Positions 27,192 to 36,959 of a DNA stretch of 41,861 nucleotides are shown piece by piece (the stretch's first letter is position 1; every line of letters begins with the position of its first letter). Source of the stretch: Microbacteriaceae bacterium (GTDB taxonomy: Bacteria; Actinomycetota; Actinomycetes; Actinomycetales; Microbacteriaceae); the NCBI GenBank assembly GCA_025464815.1, contig JAODMW010000059.1, forward strand, positions 1 to 41,861. The letters are read 5' to 3'. Position numbers and translations under genes: made by a program. Below the pieces are notes generated by a model. That model searched no databases. It saw nothing but the letters and a program-made list of their open reading frames with translations, and had not been told where the DNA came from.

Positions 27192-27265
27192 GGCGGGGTA
27201 GCTCAGGTGGTTAGAGCACACGGCTCATAATCGTGGTGTCGCGGGTTCGAGTCCCGCCCTCGCTA
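27192..27265 (+). tRNA. tRNA-Met (CAT)
   Basis: ggcggggtagctcaggtggttagagcacacggctcataatcgtggtgtcgcgggttcgagtcccgccctcgcta. Confidence 0.95.
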
Positions 27266-27520
27266 CATCGAAAAGTGCTGGTCAGAGGCAATATTTTTTA
27301 ACGCATAATTCACTGCGACGAAGTCCGTGACCACAATTTGACCACATTTGGCTCGATTGAACGTCCGGCTCACAATAGGCGAGTGATGCGCGTGACATTG
27401 CGGATGTGTTTTGCTGGCATGCCGGCCCTCGTTCCGTCAAGGTTGCCCTCATATCTACTCAGACCGGGGGTCGTGCATTTCGCACATATCTGCCCTAATA
27501 TCCCGAGCTCTTCGTCTCAT

Positions 27521-29308
27521 CTAGACGTCGTAGTCGAAGGCCAGATCGCGTAGCGGGAGTGTCGTGTCGTAGTCGGGATGAAATCTTTGGGTACGACCGC
27601 GCTCGGCAATCAGGTGGAGATTTTTGCGAGCACGGGACGCGATTACGTACAGAAGCCGTTTCGCTCCGTCTAACTGGTCAGGATCGTTAAAGTGGGGGAC
27701 CATACCGTTCATGAGTGCGAACGCGATCACAGTATCGTATTCAGCACCTTTGACACCGTGAATGGTCGAAATGGTGATTCCTGTCCTGGGACGGAACACT
27801 CGCTTGATCAGCTCGGTGTCGGTTACGAATGGCGCGCCGTCGCGTACCAACCGATCTATTCGAACTTTAGATTCGCTGAAGAACGCCTCGCGCTGACCGA
27901 CGAGGGTCGGAATGATTCCGGGGTCGACATGGAGACGCTCAAAAATCTCGTCGAAATACAGAGCGAGGTACTCGAGTCCATCCGTGGCGCTGAGATGTAT
28001 GCCGTTTGACAGTCGCAACAGAGATCGCGGGCTTACGTGGCCAACAGTCACGGACGCAGCCTCCAAATCGTGAAGGATTTCGCGCGCCCAGCGGAGCCTG
28101 GACACGAACAGGCGAGGCGATGCTTCCGTGAGCCCAATGCGCGCCAGCTTGTACCAAAAATTGTCGATGTCACGTGAGAACGGTACGAGACCAGGCCCAT
28201 CAAACTCGTACTCGGGGAGCGCAGCAACGAGGTGACGGGTCAACGAGCCAAGATGCGCCCACCACGGAGCGACGACACAAATCTCATTGGGTGAAATACC
28301 TAGGTCGTTCACATTGTGCTTTATTAAGCGCACGATCTCGGCTTCGAGGTCGGCTCGATCGACTGTGTTATTGAACGTGATCTCGCTGGCATACGTGCGG
28401 TTCTCGGCAGCGGGTTCGATGGGGCTGCCCACTACCTTGTAGTTTGCAAAATAATCGATAATGCGGGTCGACGAGCGATAGTTCTTTGACAGCTCCATCG
28501 CCTTAAGTGCAAGGCCCGTCTGCTTGGAGTAGTCTGCGGCGTCTACGGCGTATCCCCCGAGCGATGTGAAGATAGCCTGATTTGGGTCGCCAACAATTAG
28601 CGCGCGAACGTCACCATTGCCCGTTCGAAGGATCGAGGCAATGATTTCGTACTGGATCTCGCGCGTGTCCTGATACTCGTCCACCGCAATGAACGTGAAG
28701 ATCATCGAGAGCAACTTGCTGATTTCCGGCCGCGATCTGGTGAGCTCCAACGCGTAAAGCAGGATGTGTTCAAAATCCAGCTTCCGATCCCGTTTCAATT
28801 CGGCGAAGTAGAGGTCCAACACGGAGTTCACTGCCGAATGTTTCACAACGCTAGGGCATTGCAACGATCGACCTGACGTCGTGAAGTGATAGCCACAGTC
28901 GTAATACGTCACCTTAGGGTTCGAGCCGGCACAGAGCCTTGCAATCATCTGTTCCGACTCGTGGGAGTTGATCACTTGAAATCCGTTTTTGAGTTCCGGA
29001 TGGTAGATCCCATAGGGACGAATGATCCACTCAAGGCAGAACGCATGAATAGTTCCAATCCATAGCTGCTCGGTGTCTATTCCGAGGTCCCCGATCCGTT
29101 CCTCGATCTCTTCCGCCGCTCGATGTGTGTAGGTAATCGCACACACGAACTGGCGCTGCGACGTCAGCTTCTGTAGTTCGCTTGCGACCTTGTAGGTCAG
29201 CGTCCGCGTCTTGCCGCTGCCGGGACAGGCGACCAAAACAATGCTTCCTGGTTCATCAAGGGCACCCTGCTGCTCCGGGTTCAGGGCATCCGCATCCCAA
29301 ACTTTCAC
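27521..29308 (-). CDS. gajB: UvrD/PcrA-like helicase, candidate Gabija GajB
   Basis: VACPGSGKTRTLTYKVASEL (Walker A), TYTHRAAEEIEERI, VDEYQDTREIQYEII, KNYRSSTRIIDYF, ISTIHGVKGAEYDTVIAFALMNG; GTGA overlap with upstream OLD-family gene. Confidence 0.88.
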   Translation of the reverse strand: MKVWDADALNPEQQGALDEPGSIVLVACPGSGKTRTLTYKVASELQKLTSQRQFVCAITYTHRAAEEIEERIGDLGIDTEQLWIGTIHAFCLEWIIRPYGIYHPELKNGFQVINSHESEQMIARLCAGSNPKVTYYDCGYHFTTSGRSLQCPSVVKHSAVNSVLDLYFAELKRDRKLDFEHILLYALELTRSRPEISKLLSMIFTFIAVDEYQDTREIQYEIIASILRTGNGDVRALIVGDPNQAIFTSLGGYAVDAADYSKQTGLALKAMELSKNYRSSTRIIDYFANYKVVGSPIEPAAENRTYASEITFNNTVDRADLEAEIVRLIKHNVNDLGISPNEICVVAPWWAHLGSLTRHLVAALPEYEFDGPGLVPFSRDIDNFWYKLARIGLTEASPRLFVSRLRWAREILHDLEAASVTVGHVSPRSLLRLSNGIHLSATDGLEYLALYFDEIFERLHVDPGIIPTLVGQREAFFSESKVRIDRLVRDGAPFVTDTELIKRVFRPRTGITISTIHGVKGAEYDTVIAFALMNGMVPHFNDPDQLDGAKRLLYVIASRARKNLHLIAERGRTQRFHPDYDTTLPLRDLAFDYDV

Positions 29309-31443
29309 TTTGCGTATATTTCTAGGACGCCGTTTATCTCGTCGTCTGGAAAGGTCGCCAAGGTCACCGCAGCGATTTGCTCGAACGTCAGCTCCTTCCT
29401 TCGAAACGTTTCCACGACGCCTTGGAACGCAGCCCGATCAGCTTCTGAACAGGTCCCGTCATCTACGCGCACCCTCAAGCGATGTGACAGGACGTTCGCC
29501 CAGATTTCGTCCGAAAGAGTAGGGTTGGCGAACTTCAACGCCCCCAAAATATAAGGAGGGATGACAACGTGGGGCGTTAGGGCGGAAGCGACAAGTACTG
29601 CGAACCAGCCCTTGCCCACGCGCTTTGCAACCTGCAGGACCAAGCGTCCAAATCGGCCCATGTCGCCTGACTCGAAATGTTCCTTCGCGTCGGCTCGCAC
29701 CTTTTCAGAACGAAAAAGGTCATCGACCAGTCCGACCATAAGATCGACGTTTCCGCAGTCGATGAGATCGACTTCAAAAGTGTGCGGGGCGTAGAAGACT
29801 TCAACCCAGTCGTTGCCGTTCGAAAAGGTGTCGAGGCGAACTTTCCGCTCTGCGCCGCTCTTCTGTGAGCGAGCCATGGCGTCGCGACGCTTAGCCAATT
29901 TATCATCGGTCTCGCCAGCGCCAATGGTCTCGATGGCGACATCAAGATCGGTGACTATTGCACACCGCTTTCGGATTCGATCGTCGTGAAACAGCGAAGC
30001 AACGTTCTCGAAGCCGGTGCTGCGAAGGTTCACCAAACTCATTCCGAGCTCATCGAGTCCAAGACCCAAGACCTTCTTGACCATCGCCGGGATCAAAATC
30101 TCTTCGGCGTCTCCTTCGACCAGGACCACGCTCCGAGCAAAAAGGAGGTTGCTTCTGACCGCGTCTAGGTAACGTTCAATGTTCCCGACCAGCTTGTCGT
30201 CGAGGCCTTTCGACGGTTGGTAAGCCTCGACCATTCCGGCTTCCCGACCAAGAATGTTCATGCTCTTTACGTTGCTCACTTCAGATATCTGAGTTGAGTG
30301 AGTCGAATAGATTATCTGCGTATCGACATAGTTCAGACGATCAAACAGCGTTTTCTGAATGTGAGTGTGTATGTGTGCTTCGGGCTCTTCGATCAGCAAG
30401 AAGTTGGCGATGGATTGCATGCCTTGTGAGTATTTGAACTCCAGAATCTTGAGGGTCAAATAGATCAAGTTGGCTCCCCCTAAGCTCAGCTGGTGAATGC
30501 CGCCTTCGTAGTCTTCGCCATCCTCCCCGACAAAGAGCTTGAGTGATTGGAAAAGCTGATCAGCATCACCGGGAAGATCAGAACGAATTGTCAGCGACGA
30601 GGGGGAGTAAGCCTCTCCAACCGTCTCGCGAATCGTCTCCTTGATGTCTCCAGTGATCGCCCCCACATCAGGCCAGTCCTCGATCGACTGATTCAGATCG
30701 ACAACCTTGTCAGCGATTGCCTTAAACGCAACGAGGTCAATTTCACCGCTCTTGCTTTTCAGCAGGTTTCGCAGTGGATTGGGGCGATTCTCCTGAAAAT
30801 CTCGAACAACGTCTCTGAGCGCTGGAACGAAGGAGAAAGAAATCTCCCGTGCGACTGCAAATTGTTTGGGAAGCATCGCGCCGACGTCAGGATGGTCTAG
30901 TTCCTTGTCGAATTCGACCGTGTCAAAGTCTCCGACGACCGCACGGTAGAAGACAGGATCGACAAAATTGCCTGAGCTCTTTCCGGTGAAGACGGTTTCG
31001 TAGTCGCTGATCGTGATGGACTCGCGAACCTTCAGGAGTCCGGCGTGATCGCCAGTTGAAATCTGAGACAGGTTGTGCCTGATTTCTCGCCGCGGTCGGA
31101 AGATCAGGTTGTAGGTCGCTCGCTCAATTTTTCCTTTGCCGGCGACTCCTGAGCCGTGTAGGAAAAGCGCCTGAATGGATTCGTCGTCGCTCACTTCCGC
31201 GAACTCAATACTGATGACGATCCAGTGCCCTCTCCAATCGGACAGACCTCGATGGAAGTCCTCCTCGTTCAGCCGGTACGCGGCGGCGAGCATATTTGCA
31301 TCAAGCAGCAGGCGAACTGCTCGAAACAGATTGGTCTTACCCGTCCCGTTCTCACCAATAACGGTGTTCACACCTTTGTTGAAGTCCAACGAAGTGCTCA
31401 CGAAGTTTCGATAATTTACCAAGCTCAGTTTCGAGATATACAC
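29305..31443 (-). CDS. gajA: OLD-family ATPase/TOPRIM nuclease, candidate Gabija GajA
   Basis: LVNYRNFVSTSLDFNKGVNTVIGENGTGKTNLFRAVRLLLDA, LIEEPEAHIHTHIQ, IYSTHSTQIS, VVLVEGDAEEILIPAMV, CAIVTDLDVA; GTG 31443 with ggagg SD preferred over the 31503 ORF start. Confidence 0.88.
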   Translation of the reverse strand: MYISKLSLVNYRNFVSTSLDFNKGVNTVIGENGTGKTNLFRAVRLLLDANMLAAAYRLNEEDFHRGLSDWRGHWIVISIEFAEVSDDESIQALFLHGSGVAGKGKIERATYNLIFRPRREIRHNLSQISTGDHAGLLKVRESITISDYETVFTGKSSGNFVDPVFYRAVVGDFDTVEFDKELDHPDVGAMLPKQFAVAREISFSFVPALRDVVRDFQENRPNPLRNLLKSKSGEIDLVAFKAIADKVVDLNQSIEDWPDVGAITGDIKETIRETVGEAYSPSSLTIRSDLPGDADQLFQSLKLFVGEDGEDYEGGIHQLSLGGANLIYLTLKILEFKYSQGMQSIANFLLIEEPEAHIHTHIQKTLFDRLNYVDTQIIYSTHSTQISEVSNVKSMNILGREAGMVEAYQPSKGLDDKLVGNIERYLDAVRSNLLFARSVVLVEGDAEEILIPAMVKKVLGLGLDELGMSLVNLRSTGFENVASLFHDDRIRKRCAIVTDLDVAIETIGAGETDDKLAKRRDAMARSQKSGAERKVRLDTFSNGNDWVEVFYAPHTFEVDLIDCGNVDLMVGLVDDLFRSEKVRADAKEHFESGDMGRFGRLVLQVAKRVGKGWFAVLVASALTPHVVIPPYILGALKFANPTLSDEIWANVLSHRLRVRVDDGTCSEADRAAFQGVVETFRRKELTFEQIAAVTLATFPDDEINGVLEIYAK

Positions 31444-32087
31444 CGGGTGATCCTCCTGTTGAACGTGCTGGTCCTGCTGGCGCCGAATTACGCACGACTG
31501 CACTTGTTCGATGAGTCGAACGTCGGCTCATGAAAGATGCCTGACGTCATGACTCACTAAATCGATTGCTTTCATGGCTCCGTTTAGGGTTTGCGAGCAT
31601 TCCCGCCCTCTCGATATCCCCAGTGTTGCAAACTGCAGCTCGGCCAGCTCAACCACGGGTCAACGCATGCTGGGAAAAGCTCTGTCGTTTCGAAGCCCAA
31701 AATCGCGAACCCCCTCCTGAGTTTTCGTAGCCTTGCGACTTCGAGACCTGCGCTTGAGGGGAGTCGCGCTGGGGTCCGAGGTTTTTTCGCATGCTCGGAT
31801 GCTAGCGGCCATCTACACGCCGTCAACAGAGGCAGCGGTTCTGCGCTCAGTCGCTGTAGCCGACTTCGCTTGCGCGGAACGTCAGCCACCGATTTTCAAG
31901 TGCTGAGGCCACTTCTTGACCACGATCACGCGTCAGCTCGTTGCGCTCAACCAATCCCGAAACGAACAGTGAACGCGCGAATTCAGCGACCAATCCACGC
32001 CTGGAGCTCATTTCCCACTCGAGTCGCGGTTGAGGATAACGGAAAGTGTCGCGTTGCCAGAAATGGGTCCACTTTCAGCCGCCATGC

Positions 32088-32237
32088 CTACCGCAGCAGG
32101 GCAGCGATAAGTAAGCCTGCTGCAGTGATGCCCGGCGGGACGGCGATGATGAGCGCATACCGCAGTGTCGAACCCCACCCACCATTTACCGCGCTTCGGA
32201 CGGTTCTCCAACGTTCAGCCCCAGCGTCACGTGTCAT
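32088..32237 (-). CDS. 49-aa single-TM protein (not in ORF track)
   Basis: MTRDAGAERWRTVRSAVNGGWGSTLRYALIIAVPPGITAAGLLIAALLR*; start overlaps the end of 32227..33114. Confidence 0.5.
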   Translation of the reverse strand: MTRDAGAERWRTVRSAVNGGWGSTLRYALIIAVPPGITAAGLLIAALLR

Positions 32238-33114
32238 CCGGATCATCCCCGTCCGACGAAACAAACGTGAGAGAAGAGCCGGTATTCATAGCCTTTCCAG
32301 CACGCCGCCGGCGACGCTCCGCGGCAGCGCGCGCCTTCGAGCGCTCCACGGTGCTGTATGCGTCAACAAGGGAGTAGTGCGTAGCGCTCGTCGTGCGAAT
32401 CTTTGAGAGCTTCGCCGGGATCCACACCGTCCTTTCCTCGAGCAGCTGCAGGCTACGGAGGCTTTCGAGTCCCTTTGCGACCGTGCCACGACTAAACCCA
32501 TACCATTCCGCGATCTGATCCTGCGTGATACGAAATTCGGGCACTTTATTTGTCTCTTTTGCGACTACCAGAAGCATGGCCAGGCCCGGCAGGGTCAGTT
32601 TGGCGAAGTCCTCATCGAGCCAGAACCGGTCTGGCAACGTGAAATAGGCCTCTTTCAGATTCGACTTCTCGCCGGTCGGGGCCGTGTAGGGGCCGCTGCC
32701 GTCTTCCATGCGTGGTGCCACATAAAGGAGCCCGCGACGGCCACGGTGCTTCTCGACAAGGCCCTTTGCGGTGAGGTACTTCCACGTTCGCGAAAGTGTC
32801 GACTCGGACCACACCAGCGCGTGCCCCGGAACGCTACGCGAGTGAAGCAAATGCATCCAAGCATGCGCTTCGAGGGGAAGCCGCTCACGCTGAAGCCAGG
32901 GCCACACACTGAGCAGCGCCAAATAGAGCAGAAGAGCTCGATGCTGCCGCTCGGACACGAGGACAGCCAACGTTCCGCGGCGATCTCGGCCGGTCTCCGG
33001 GTTCTGCACGAGCAGGCCGCGAATTTGCGCATAGCCACGCATCCAGCGCTTCGCGGCTTCTTCGCGGTCCTCGGCAGCGTTACGATCGCGCTGCGCATAA
33101 TCGGGGGTGGTCAT
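32227..33114 (-). CDS. winged-helix DNA-binding protein, hypothetical (replication/regulatory-like)
   Basis: two wHTH-like regions: WSESTLSRTWKYLTAKGLVEKHRGRRGLLYVAP and ITQDQIAEWYGFSRGTVAKGLESLRSLQLLEERTVW; Arg-rich tail. Confidence 0.65.
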   Translation of the reverse strand: MTTPDYAQRDRNAAEDREEAAKRWMRGYAQIRGLLVQNPETGRDRRGTLAVLVSERQHRALLLYLALLSVWPWLQRERLPLEAHAWMHLLHSRSVPGHALVWSESTLSRTWKYLTAKGLVEKHRGRRGLLYVAPRMEDGSGPYTAPTGEKSNLKEAYFTLPDRFWLDEDFAKLTLPGLAMLLVVAKETNKVPEFRITQDQIAEWYGFSRGTVAKGLESLRSLQLLEERTVWIPAKLSKIRTTSATHYSLVDAYSTVERSKARAAAERRRRRAGKAMNTGSSLTFVSSDGDDPDDT

Positions 33115-33555: not shown

Positions 33556-33963
33556 GTGAGCTCAAAGGATCAGCAGACAAAGCGGGTAGTCGCCGGGGTC
33601 GCTCTGGGCGTGCTTGCTCGGGGAGTTTCCTCTGTAACGAGTAACAAGATGACTTTTGAGTTCGCCTTCAACCGGGCCTGGAGGTCGTGGTCAGGCGCCC
33701 GAGATTATCCGAACATTCGGGGTCATGATCCGGGCAATTTGTTTTGGCTGGGGGTGCAGCGGTCAGCTCGTCGTAAGGGTGTCTACGCCTATTGGGACTG
33801 CGACCGAATGAGCTACCCAATGCTCGTGCACGAGGGATGGAGTGTGGACGAGAGCCTCGAGCTCCACGCTGACGACATGACCTCGGTGAGAAGCTGGGTC
33901 GACCTTGGCGAGCTTTTCTTGCAGGGATTCAAGCTCGACGAGATAACCACCTTCGGTGGCTGA
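33556..33963 (+). CDS. hypothetical protein
   Basis: 135-aa ORF with GTG start; protein-like, Trp/Tyr-rich region. Confidence 0.5.
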   Translation: MSSKDQQTKRVVAGVALGVLARGVSSVTSNKMTFEFAFNRAWRSWSGARDYPNIRGHDPGNLFWLGVQRSARRKGVYAYWDCDRMSYPMLVHEGWSVDESLELHADDMTSVRSWVDLGELFLQGFKLDEITTFGG

Positions 33964-34079: not shown

Positions 34080-36521
34080 CTATTTTCTTCGGCCTCTCCC
34101 TTTGCGCCGAGGTTGAGCTCGTTGACCAGTGCGGGTTTTCCGCGCCTGGGCAATTGAGCTCGGCGTTGACGCCGGCTGCAGCGTCGCTTGTCGCTTCTGC
34201 TCGTCAGAGCTGAGCACTTCTGGAACCCCTTCGAAGTAGACAGCGAACATACTCCCGGTCTTGCCGTTAAAAGCGAAGACAGCAGCACGAGACACGCCCA
34301 GCTGATGACCTTTTGCGCGCGCATAAGTTCTCATGCTGCGTTCCCACTCGACTATGTCATCGTGATCTGATGGCGTTGCCCAGACCAGTAACCAGCCGCC
34401 GTCGTGAAGTGTGTTGACGGGAATGGTGATGCTCCGGGCGAGTTGTCCATTGTGGGACCCGAGCACGACGTCTTTACCGTGTCGCGCCATGCGTGCTTGG
34501 GCCCTTTGATCGCCCGATAGAAGTGTGGCCTCTATGGAGACTTTTCCAAAGGGATCGAGCTGGTCGATGCTTGCGAGGAGACCGTCGATTGGGCTTGGCG
34601 ATCGGCGGGGTCTCGGTGGACTAGTGGAAAGTGCTGGTTTTCCGGACTTTTCTCGTTGATATGTTTCGAAGTACCAGGCATCAAGTGGGTCCGTTCTGCT
34701 GGTCACGATTCCTGGTGTCTGCTTGCGCCAGCGCGCTTCCTGGCCTGGCGATGGCGGACTTAGATATGGATATTTGGTGCGCACCTCGCCCGGGTCATCC
34801 TCCACGTAGAGTCCGGCCTCTAGGAAATAGAGGAATAGGTCGAGCTCGTCGGGAGCTGTGTACAAAATCGTTGCGAGAGGGTGGCGGCGTCGTCGAAGAT
34901 ACAAGAGGAACTCGGCGGGATGAGACGTGATTTCGGCGATCAGATCGAGGTCGTGAATGGATACGGTCCAGGGAACCGAATCTGTGCCAATGAGACCTGC
35001 TTGCACTAGTTCGGCGGTCGCAGTGGAAGTTGAGCTGAGATCGTCGAGGCTCACGGCGATCGTGTGGAATTCGCGCACATGGCTTAGGTCGACCCACCCC
35101 TCGCCGTGGACACGGAGCCCCCCGTCGAGGTGTATGCGGTGAACAAGCCGGTCGGCTTGTTCTGCGGCCTTTGTGATGATGCCCGTTAGATCTTTGCGGA
35201 GACGCGGCCCTGCACCTGAGCGCGACTGAGGACTCAGTGCGACGGCCTTGTCTTCGATGACGAGTGCAACATCGTCGAGGATGATCAGGTGGTCGCCCTC
35301 GACCCGTTTGGTATACGCGGACGGCGCGGATTCTTCCTCGAGCTCGCTGGCTGGAACGTAGTAGAGGATCGAATGCCATGCGCGAGATGGAGTAACTAGT
35401 CGCTCGACTGCACGCCGTGTCCGGCTCTCAAGCACCGAGCCCCGATGCTCCTGATACTTTTCCCAGCCATCGCTGGAATGCAAGGCGAGTTCAAGTCGCT
35501 CTCGAATTGCGCCTTGGGTCAGTGCTGGGTGAACGAGCATCGCTCGGGAGGTCGGTGTGCGCACAACGGGCGACATGCGGAACGGATTGCCGCCCGATAG
35601 GAATGCCTTTACGTCTTCGTTCGCACTCTGTTCGGTTTCGGGTTTCCAGCTGAACGCGTCCAGAACCGCGACAACCACATCTTCCGACAGTTTGATCGAC
35701 TCCGCGATTTCAAATGCAGACACCGATGCGGCCGCGTCATTGGGTTGCAATGCCCGATTCAGCCGCAGCGCGGCTTCAGCAAGTTCTTCCTTCGACGCCA
35801 CGCCAAGATCATCTTTCCGCTTAATCTGGGCGGCAAACCGAAACGCGTGCTCCTGTCTTCTGTTCATGTTGGCTATTTGACGGTCATTTAGCGCCGCGAG
35901 GACCCGCTGCGCCTCGGCTACCCCGAAACCGAGAGAAGCACGAAGACTCGAGTCGACGTTGCTTTCGCTGAAGAGCGAATCGGCCGTCTCCTGCAGGAGT
36001 TCCGAGTACGAAGAGCCTCGCATAGTGATTTCTGTTGCCTGCAAAGTCCCCTTAATCAGGGCCAGTGGATCTGCTGGATCGGCGTTTACGAGTCCGCGCA
36101 GCGAGCCGAGTCGGAGGAGTTCATCGGCGCTACTCAGAACCTTGTCGATGATCGACGCCGGATTGGGGAGGGGTTCCTCTTCGCGGGGCTCCTGCTTAAG
36201 GGCGACTAGCGCAACCACTTCGACCAGGGCGAACCCGTTCTCTACTCCGGCCTGATATGTAGGTTGTCCGGAGTGCCAGGGGAGGGCTCTAAGTCGCGCT
36301 TGTTCGATAACGGAAACGGGGTCGAAGCCAGCCAGGGTTTCGAACATATTGGCAACTAGAGAGTCGATTTGCGAATCGAGCGCTGTACCAGGGATTTTAG
36401 GGTCGAGTGCGGCCAAAGTCGCGAGGGCAGCGTTCACGGAGTCGGCGAGGACCTCTGCATGGATGTCGGCCCTGCCCGCTTCAGGCTTTCGTTTGCCGTG
36501 CTTTTTCTTTGCTCTGCCCAT
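34080..36521 (-). CDS. 813-aa uncharacterised protein with PD-(D/E)XK-like motif (putative nuclease)
   Basis: GDHLIILDDVALVIEDKAVALSPQSRSGAGPRLRKDLTGIITKAAEQADRLVHRI; very basic N- and C-termini. Confidence 0.7.
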   Translation of the reverse strand: MGRAKKKHGKRKPEAGRADIHAEVLADSVNAALATLAALDPKIPGTALDSQIDSLVANMFETLAGFDPVSVIEQARLRALPWHSGQPTYQAGVENGFALVEVVALVALKQEPREEEPLPNPASIIDKVLSSADELLRLGSLRGLVNADPADPLALIKGTLQATEITMRGSSYSELLQETADSLFSESNVDSSLRASLGFGVAEAQRVLAALNDRQIANMNRRQEHAFRFAAQIKRKDDLGVASKEELAEAALRLNRALQPNDAAASVSAFEIAESIKLSEDVVVAVLDAFSWKPETEQSANEDVKAFLSGGNPFRMSPVVRTPTSRAMLVHPALTQGAIRERLELALHSSDGWEKYQEHRGSVLESRTRRAVERLVTPSRAWHSILYYVPASELEEESAPSAYTKRVEGDHLIILDDVALVIEDKAVALSPQSRSGAGPRLRKDLTGIITKAAEQADRLVHRIHLDGGLRVHGEGWVDLSHVREFHTIAVSLDDLSSTSTATAELVQAGLIGTDSVPWTVSIHDLDLIAEITSHPAEFLLYLRRRRHPLATILYTAPDELDLFLYFLEAGLYVEDDPGEVRTKYPYLSPPSPGQEARWRKQTPGIVTSRTDPLDAWYFETYQREKSGKPALSTSPPRPRRSPSPIDGLLASIDQLDPFGKVSIEATLLSGDQRAQARMARHGKDVVLGSHNGQLARSITIPVNTLHDGGWLLVWATPSDHDDIVEWERSMRTYARAKGHQLGVSRAAVFAFNGKTGSMFAVYFEGVPEVLSSDEQKRQATLQPASTPSSIAQARKTRTGQRAQPRRKGRGRRK

Positions 36522-36851
36522 TCGAGCATTCCACCATGCTCGAAGGCATCATGCTTCTAGCGTTCTTGATTGAAGTTGTCTGGTGCTGGCTCTGTTGCCA
36601 ACTGGGTTAATGTGATGCGGGCGGACTCCACACATAAGACTAGACACGTTCGATGCCGACACCGTGAGTAGACAGTCGTGCGGCTCCGACCTGCGGATGT
36701 GGCTTGCGGCCACCTGGGGATACTCGACGTGACCACATTTTGACCACAACTGCGTCCGATTCAGCGATGCCTTATTCCACTAAAACTGATCGAATCGCCC
36801 GCGAGTTACAGCGAAAACGCGCCTATAACTCCATAAATCGATTTACAGTCG

Positions 36852-36905
36852 GAGCACACGGCTCATAATCGTGGTGTCGCGAGTTCGAGTCCCGCCCTCG
36901 CTACA
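36852..36905 (+). repeat. attR: 3' tRNA-Met fragment
   Basis: direct copy of 27214-27267 with one mismatch (gtcgcgAgttcg versus gtcgcgGgttcg). Confidence 0.9.
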
Positions 36906-36959
36906 ACGAAAAAGTGCTGATCGGGTGCACATTTTACGACCCGTGACGACTTCATCCTT

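Follow-up and report, generated by a model that had tools for sequence, protein, structure and literature searches.

Stand-alone defence nucleases of the PD-(D/E)XK type are a known kind, represented by Shedu and, on our present reading, by GapS1. Nucleases of this type also act in repair, recombination and transposition. GapS1 is said, in work attributed to Mahata et al. 2024, to be an anti-phage protein of Gamma-Mobile-Trio islands, and it reportedly has a phage capsid protein as its trigger and dormancy as the outcome. The protein described here, of 813 aa, is encoded in the window, that is, the whole stretch of 41,861 nucleotides of Microbacteriaceae DNA that was analysed, and an initial annotation had proposed that it might be a nuclease active in defence. 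On the evidence assembled below, we think it likely that this nuclease-type protein acts on its own against phages (or mobile elements): the nuclease side of the proposal is now stronger than first stated, and the defence side, which we infer, is supported.

The gene is an open reading frame of 813 codons that begins with ATG at 36521 and ends at 34080, on the minus strand. The initial annotation had given no strand; its frame, the two segments it quoted (LDDVALVIEDKA, residues 415-426, and RLRKDLTGIITKAAEQADRLVHRI, residues 439-462) and its Lys/Arg-rich ends (MGRAKKKHGKRK and QPRRKGRGRRK) were all found. Directly 5' of the ATG lies a ribosome-binding-like GGTGG, which is plausible as a Shine-Dalgarno motif. 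The frame is kept at full length in 60 aligned homologues (23-58% identity, 29 invariant columns), and is therefore more than a chance occurrence. AlphaFold, given the 61-sequence alignment of the family (A2), produced a full-length model with a mean pLDDT of 91 and a pTM of 0.90. The parts of the gene are:

34080-36521, minus strand: the 813-aa open reading frame, predicted PD-(D/E)XK nuclease, start codon 36521-36519
35742-36479, minus strand: N-terminal all-helical domain of the AlphaFold model, residues 15-260, candidate sensor
35571-35741, minus strand: helix-turn-helix-like segment, residues 261-317, with model helices 269-276 and 280-289
34878-35570, minus strand: predicted PD-(D/E)XK nuclease domain, residues 318-548, from AlphaFold, Foldseek and conservation
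35427-35429, minus strand: codon of E365, the alpha-1 Glu, invariant (61/61), opposite GapS1 E284
35292-35294, minus strand: codon of D410, predicted catalytic Asp of VEGD, invariant (61/61), opposite GapS1 D316
35247-35255, minus strand: codons of E423-D424-K425, the ExK motif, E and K invariant (61/61)
35157-35159, minus strand: codon of Q455, the alpha-2 Gln, invariant (61/61)
34602-34877, minus strand: conserved DELDLFLYF segment, residues 549-640, with 8 invariant columns including D558, E559, D561 and W616
34212-34601, minus strand: C-terminal alpha/beta domain, residues 641-770, with invariant K737 and R745
34083-34211, minus strand: disordered Lys/Arg-rich tail, residues 771-813, of low pLDDT

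Residues 261-317 may be called helix-turn-helix-like from the pattern of helices in the model. Across the family, the nuclease domain is the best conserved part, with a mean pairwise identity of 44% and 15 invariant columns, whereas the N-terminal helical domain is the most variable (24%); such a contrast would fit a diversifying sensor joined to a fixed effector. The net charge over the final 35 residues has a median of +9 in the family.

In the AlphaFold model, residues 318-548 fold in the alpha-beta-beta-beta-alpha-beta order of the PD-(D/E)XK core, and the domain modelled alone reaches a pLDDT of 90.6 and a pTM of 0.85. When this domain was compared with the PDB by Foldseek, the best matches were nearly all PD-(D/E)XK nucleases. 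The top match was R.BspD6I2, the small subunit of R.BspD6I (2p14, E 6e-4, probability 1.00), and further matches included the R2 retrotransposon endonuclease, VC1899, Shedu SduA (1.5e-3), Cdn1/Can2, Nt.BspD6I, Avs3, McrC, AddB and BstEII. Normalised by query length, the TM-scores of these matches reach only about 0.3-0.4, and the fold match is therefore one of the common core only. Residues E365, D410, E423, K425 and Q455 are invariant in all 61 sequences, and the catalytic residues sit on the expected secondary-structure elements of the model. The REase-like fold expected around the ExK motif is thus seen in the predicted structure, and the motif itself stands as first read; the catalytic Asp, however, is not the one in LDD (D417, found in only 56 of 61 sequences), which we rejected in favour of D410 in VEGD. 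The segment first described as a basic helix is likewise present, but corresponds to the fold's standard second helix, with invariant Q455 and R458. From the model, we consider residues 318-548 well supported as a complete PD-(D/E)XK active-site domain, and the protein a predicted nuclease.

Beyond this domain, Foldseek with the full-length model gave no significant global match in the PDB and viral libraries, and therefore the whole architecture has no solved counterpart there. Searches of PDB sequences with whole-family and domain profiles returned chance matches only.

What such a domain would act on has to be considered. Some enzymes with PD-(D/E)XK-like folds act on RNA, tRNA splicing endonucleases appear among the full-length Foldseek matches, and SEC-C zinc motifs occur in distant relatives, all of which would suit a nuclease-fold protein devoted to RNA cleavage or nucleic-acid binding, in a toxin-like or regulatory role. 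However, the full D-ExK set together with the Gln is found in 61/61 sequences and most of the best matches of the domain are to DNA nucleases, and we regard this scenario as quite improbable. A restriction-type or modification-dependent enzyme, directed against incoming plasmids or (un)modified DNA with no need of an infection trigger, would agree with the presence of R.BspD6I2, Nt.BspD6I, McrC and BstEII among the closest fold matches, with a helix-turn-helix-like segment and basic ends that could, on the model, bind DNA, and with a Gordonia homologue placed within a helicase-DUF1156-DUF499 operon. Yet those fold matches reach the common core only, no methyltransferase is adjacent to the gene in the window, and the gene is usually alone; we therefore tend to regard this scenario as unlikely.

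Scans of the 813-aa protein against Pfam, NCBIfam and PADLOC gave no family match. Neither the protein nor the domains of its family match DUF4263/SduA (Pfam and PADLOC), and the protein matches neither GajA nor GajB (PADLOC). The NERD family (PF08378, gathering cut-off 22.1 bits) has no match in the window protein and is approached below that threshold in 6 of the 61 nuclease domains (best E 0.0039) and in two distant relatives (15 bits). Of 300 same-family genomes, 7 have a homologue, counting the one from which the window comes; GTDB genomes gave 80 loci with homologues, and plasmids 15 records. All but one of the 80 loci are named as actinobacterial, and the exception, in a 'Salinicola' bin, may reflect a binning error. 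With the single protein as query, no relatives were found in phage records or viral contigs. The nearest relatives share 56-58% identity with the 813-aa protein, among them that of Agromyces sp. S2-1-8 (56%). The tree of the 61 sequences is at odds with taxonomy: the Micrococcales alone require no fewer than 12 changes on branches with good support, a conflict to which paralogy could contribute. A same-strand gene of at least 100 aa within 60 bp is absent in 74 of the 80 loci and present in 6, a count that rests on a simple, purpose-made gene caller; no fixed operon partner was found across the loci, where the immediate neighbours vary. The family is thus sparse, horizontally scattered and mobile.

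Some Streptomyces plasmid homologues (NZ_CP108386, NZ_CP115938, NZ_CP108579 and NZ_CP114282; loci L008, L014 and L015) are misannotated as 'preprotein translocase subunit SecA', a label whose probable origin is the SEC-C motif seen in distant relatives. This NCBI annotation would favour an ordinary housekeeping protein. We rejected a SecA identity, to which we give next to no credit: Pfam and NCBIfam show no SecA match, only those 7 of 300 same-family genomes carry the gene, and its phylogeny is scattered.

Relatives outside the Actinomycetota were reached by tblastn, which led to SEC-C- or NERD-annotated or hypothetical plasmid proteins of Photobacterium, Aliarcobacter, Bradyrhizobium, Exiguobacterium, Lactococcus and Salimicrobium. 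An alignment of this SEC-C/NERD group (A5) matches A2 by hhalign over 612 columns (probability 99.94, E 7.6e-37), and its profile, used as a search model, recovers the window gene (E 2e-27). Judged by their sequences, the 813-aa family and the SEC-C/NERD plasmid proteins of Proteobacteria and Bacillota make up one superfamily. Proteins such as those of Photobacterium damselae (WP_086368691), Aliarcobacter (WP_207796779) and Bradyrhizobium (WP_248114207) are full-length homologues that share with the 813-aa family the core residues, the DELD segment, and plasmid and defence-gene settings; their identity to it is low, and they are likewise uncharacterised. The C-terminus differs: a SEC-C zinc motif is carried by several of the SEC-C/NERD proteins (3/6 in A5 versus 0/61 in A2), whereas the actinobacterial branch ends in a disordered Lys/Arg-rich tail. 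In Lactococcus plasmid pUCCL637D (L104, 5358-8718), an IS30 element splits the homologue, leaving the NERD-annotated part on one side and the SEC-C end on the other, and AbiEi/AbiEii are found in the region. The initial annotation had called the 813-aa protein uncharacterised, which is true in that the searched libraries hold no family for it, but it is not an orphan, as it belongs to the SEC-C/NERD superfamily and has a remote relative in GapS1.

A Klebsiella prophage record is described as holding a GAPS1-like protein (PMC12774648). Its gp49 scores 393 bits with NF047931, the model of the anti-phage protein GapS1, and the GapS1 alignment that we used with hhalign was built around it. NF047931 matches 14 of the 61 nuclease domains, with a best E of 9.6e-5; every other model among the matches listed reaches 1-4 of the 61 domains, at E 0.01 or worse. 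Relative to the curated cut-off of 320 bits, the Gordonia homologue scores 19 bits and the window protein gives no match. By hhalign, the GapS1 alignment matches A5 at E 5.8e-5 and A2 at E 0.0017, the latter with a probability of only 15%, and GapS1 residues E284, D316, D329-x-K331 and Q362 align, in the same order, with E365, D410, E423-x-K425 and Q455. A search of 297 Actinomycetota genomes with NF047931 gave no match, but the control genomes gave none either. The similarity being remote and the curated cut-off far off, the 813-aa protein is not a member of the GapS1 family; it is probably, by sequence comparison, a distant cousin. Taken by itself, the GapS1 link is weak. Elsewhere in the same prophage (Klebsiella phage ST437-OXA245phi4.1), gp35 (L096, 26579-27655) weakly matches NCBIfam GapS4b (25 bits, E 7e-6), and may represent a second defence cargo beside GapS1.

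In the window, the gene lies in a 9.6-kb island with the following features:

27192-27266, plus strand: tRNA-Met(CAT), integration target
27214-27274, plus strand: left att repeat, at the 3' end of tRNA-Met
27326-27346, plus strand: internal repeat CGTGACCACAATTTGACCACA, possible recombinase arm site
27521-29308, minus strand: GajB, UvrD-like helicase of Gabija (PDLC00127, 781 bits)
29305-31503, minus strand: GajA, OLD-family ATPase/TOPRIM of Gabija (PDLC00072, 969 bits)
32227-33114, minus strand: 295-aa protein with an HTH_Crp_2 domain (Pfam match)
33556-33963, plus strand: putative 135-aa open reading frame, no family match in the libraries searched
36728-36748, plus strand: internal repeat CGTGACCACATTTTGACCACA, second copy, possible recombinase arm site
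36852-36912, plus strand: right att repeat, 61 nt, 97% identical

The att-bounded tRNA-Met island of the initial annotation is borne out by these 61-nt direct repeats, 97% identical, and by a GC content of 56% within the island versus 63-64% outside, and what had been called a Gabija-like pair is a true GajA and GajB. The near-identical repeat CGTGACCACA(A/T)TTTGACCACA, present just inside both ends, could be a recombinase arm site. The 295-aa protein, possibly a replication initiator or regulator of the element, was not found near other homologues of the 813-aa gene. No integrase-like open reading frame was recognised within the island, which looks like a non-autonomous element with a recombinase acting in trans. 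In genomes of the same genus, the downstream flank is never joined to the upstream flank and no clean empty site was found; the conserved upstream flank stops at, or about 20 nt beyond, the 3' end of the tRNA. Two relatives (G638 and G641) each carry a separate att duplication at tRNA-Met, the copies being spaced by about 7 kb and 52 kb, and one of these duplications encloses IS21-like genes and an MFS transporter. Because these duplications differ, we consider tRNA-Met to be an integration hotspot.

Four homologues lie inside tRNA islands bounded by att repeats (tRNA-Met, Gly, Thr and Arg), and the known systems found among the neighbours of homologues comprise Lamassu, DRT, BREX, CBASS, Thoeris, AbiE and Lit genes. 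The Bradyrhizobium relative is adjoined by AbiEi/AbiEii, AbiV and CBASS; Lit is near the Aliarcobacter relative, AbiE near the Lactococcus one and type I RM near the Salimicrobium one. Scanned with PADLOC at E 1e-15, the 128 immediate neighbours matched 65 models, candidate systems included, versus 31 for 128 control genes from the same contigs; these tallies, as those made with Pfam, count families and not proteins, with the best 25 listed, and PADLOC contains generic models, so that they show a trend and not an exact enrichment. The matches listed include LmuB, Drt3a, BrxA, a CBASS effector, PifA, ThsB, GajB, AriA and DitA for the neighbours, and for the controls mainly generic kinase-like models and one type II methyl-directed enzyme (mREase). 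Pfam phage integrase was found in 7 of the 128 neighbours and is absent among the control families listed. The association with defence genes that was to be checked is therefore present, as a trend. Some homologues adjoin ordinary genes, for example an M16 peptidase or ABC transporters, and the defence setting is thus not universal. A KAP-family NTPase is encoded near the gene at three loci, on the same strand and at a distance of about 150 bp in L015 and L050, and about 6 kb away in L012. In Gordonia plasmid pGKT2 (L009, 8537-23896), the operon that holds the homologue is possibly a multi-gene variant of the system.

This mobility raises the question of whether the nuclease works not in defence but for the element that carries it, helping the island or plasmid to excise, mobilise, replicate or recombine. 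Homologues are frequent on plasmids and in att-bounded islands, some Streptomyces plasmids have transposase/ATP-binding (TniB-like) operons near the gene while others have MOB genes there, and PD-(D/E)XK folds include TnsA-type enzymes. We give this scenario a small but real chance: the gene has no constant element partner among its varying neighbours, unrelated hosts carry it at four different tRNA genes, it occurs on chromosomes as well as plasmids, and the window island lacks an integrase but carries Gabija.

The gene, then, is mobile, usually alone and often in the company of defence genes. From a mobile and scattered family with a distant kinship to GapS1, we infer that it is probably a stand-alone phage-defence gene missed by current databases. 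By a proposed parallel to GapS1, the N-terminal half of this defence nuclease would sense an infection cue, and would keep the nuclease in check before infection, while the basic tail, or SEC-C in relatives, would tether it to nucleic acid. Upon infection, the nuclease would cut DNA (RNA being less likely), and phage propagation would stop, either by direct cleavage or by a halt of the host cell. In its widest form, the proposal is that one protein of about 800 aa, sensor and nuclease in one, makes up an unnamed, widespread anti-phage system of Actinomycetota, Pseudomonadota, Bacillota, Campylobacterota and haloarchaea, with interchangeable C-terminal tethers (SEC-C or a Lys/Arg tail) and GapS1 as a shorter, distant cousin, and that databases now miss it; here we find the arguments evenly balanced. 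If true, a common gene labelled 'hypothetical', 'SEC-C domain' or 'SecA' would encode a defence nuclease of wide distribution and with an architecture of its own, GapS1 would be joined to a far larger superfamily, a testable single-gene system would be added, and a recurring misannotation corrected.

The architecture and superfamily of the 813-aa protein are absent from the libraries searched, and its resemblance to known systems is partial. R.BspD6I small subunit, the best PDB fold match, has 9% identity to it and, with Nt.BspD6I, shares the common core only. The CRISPR ancillary nucleases Can2/Cdn1 and VC1899 match its PD-(D/E)XK domain with probabilities up to 0.98-1.00, and their whole architecture gave no significant match in the full-length search. 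Shedu SduA is, similarly, a single-gene PD-(D/E)XK defence nuclease and ranks high among the domain's fold matches, but the 813-aa protein has no DUF4263 or PADLOC SduA match, and the flanking domains are others. GapS1 is shorter (about 516 aa in gp49 of the Klebsiella prophage, versus 813 aa), has DxK where the 813-aa protein has ExK, and is without the DELDLF segment, the C-terminal domain or a basic tail in register. Both are nevertheless single proteins carried as mobile-element cargo, with a helical N-terminal half, a 'P-[LV]...LlH..L' lead-in and then a nuclease core of E, D, (D/E)xK and Q.
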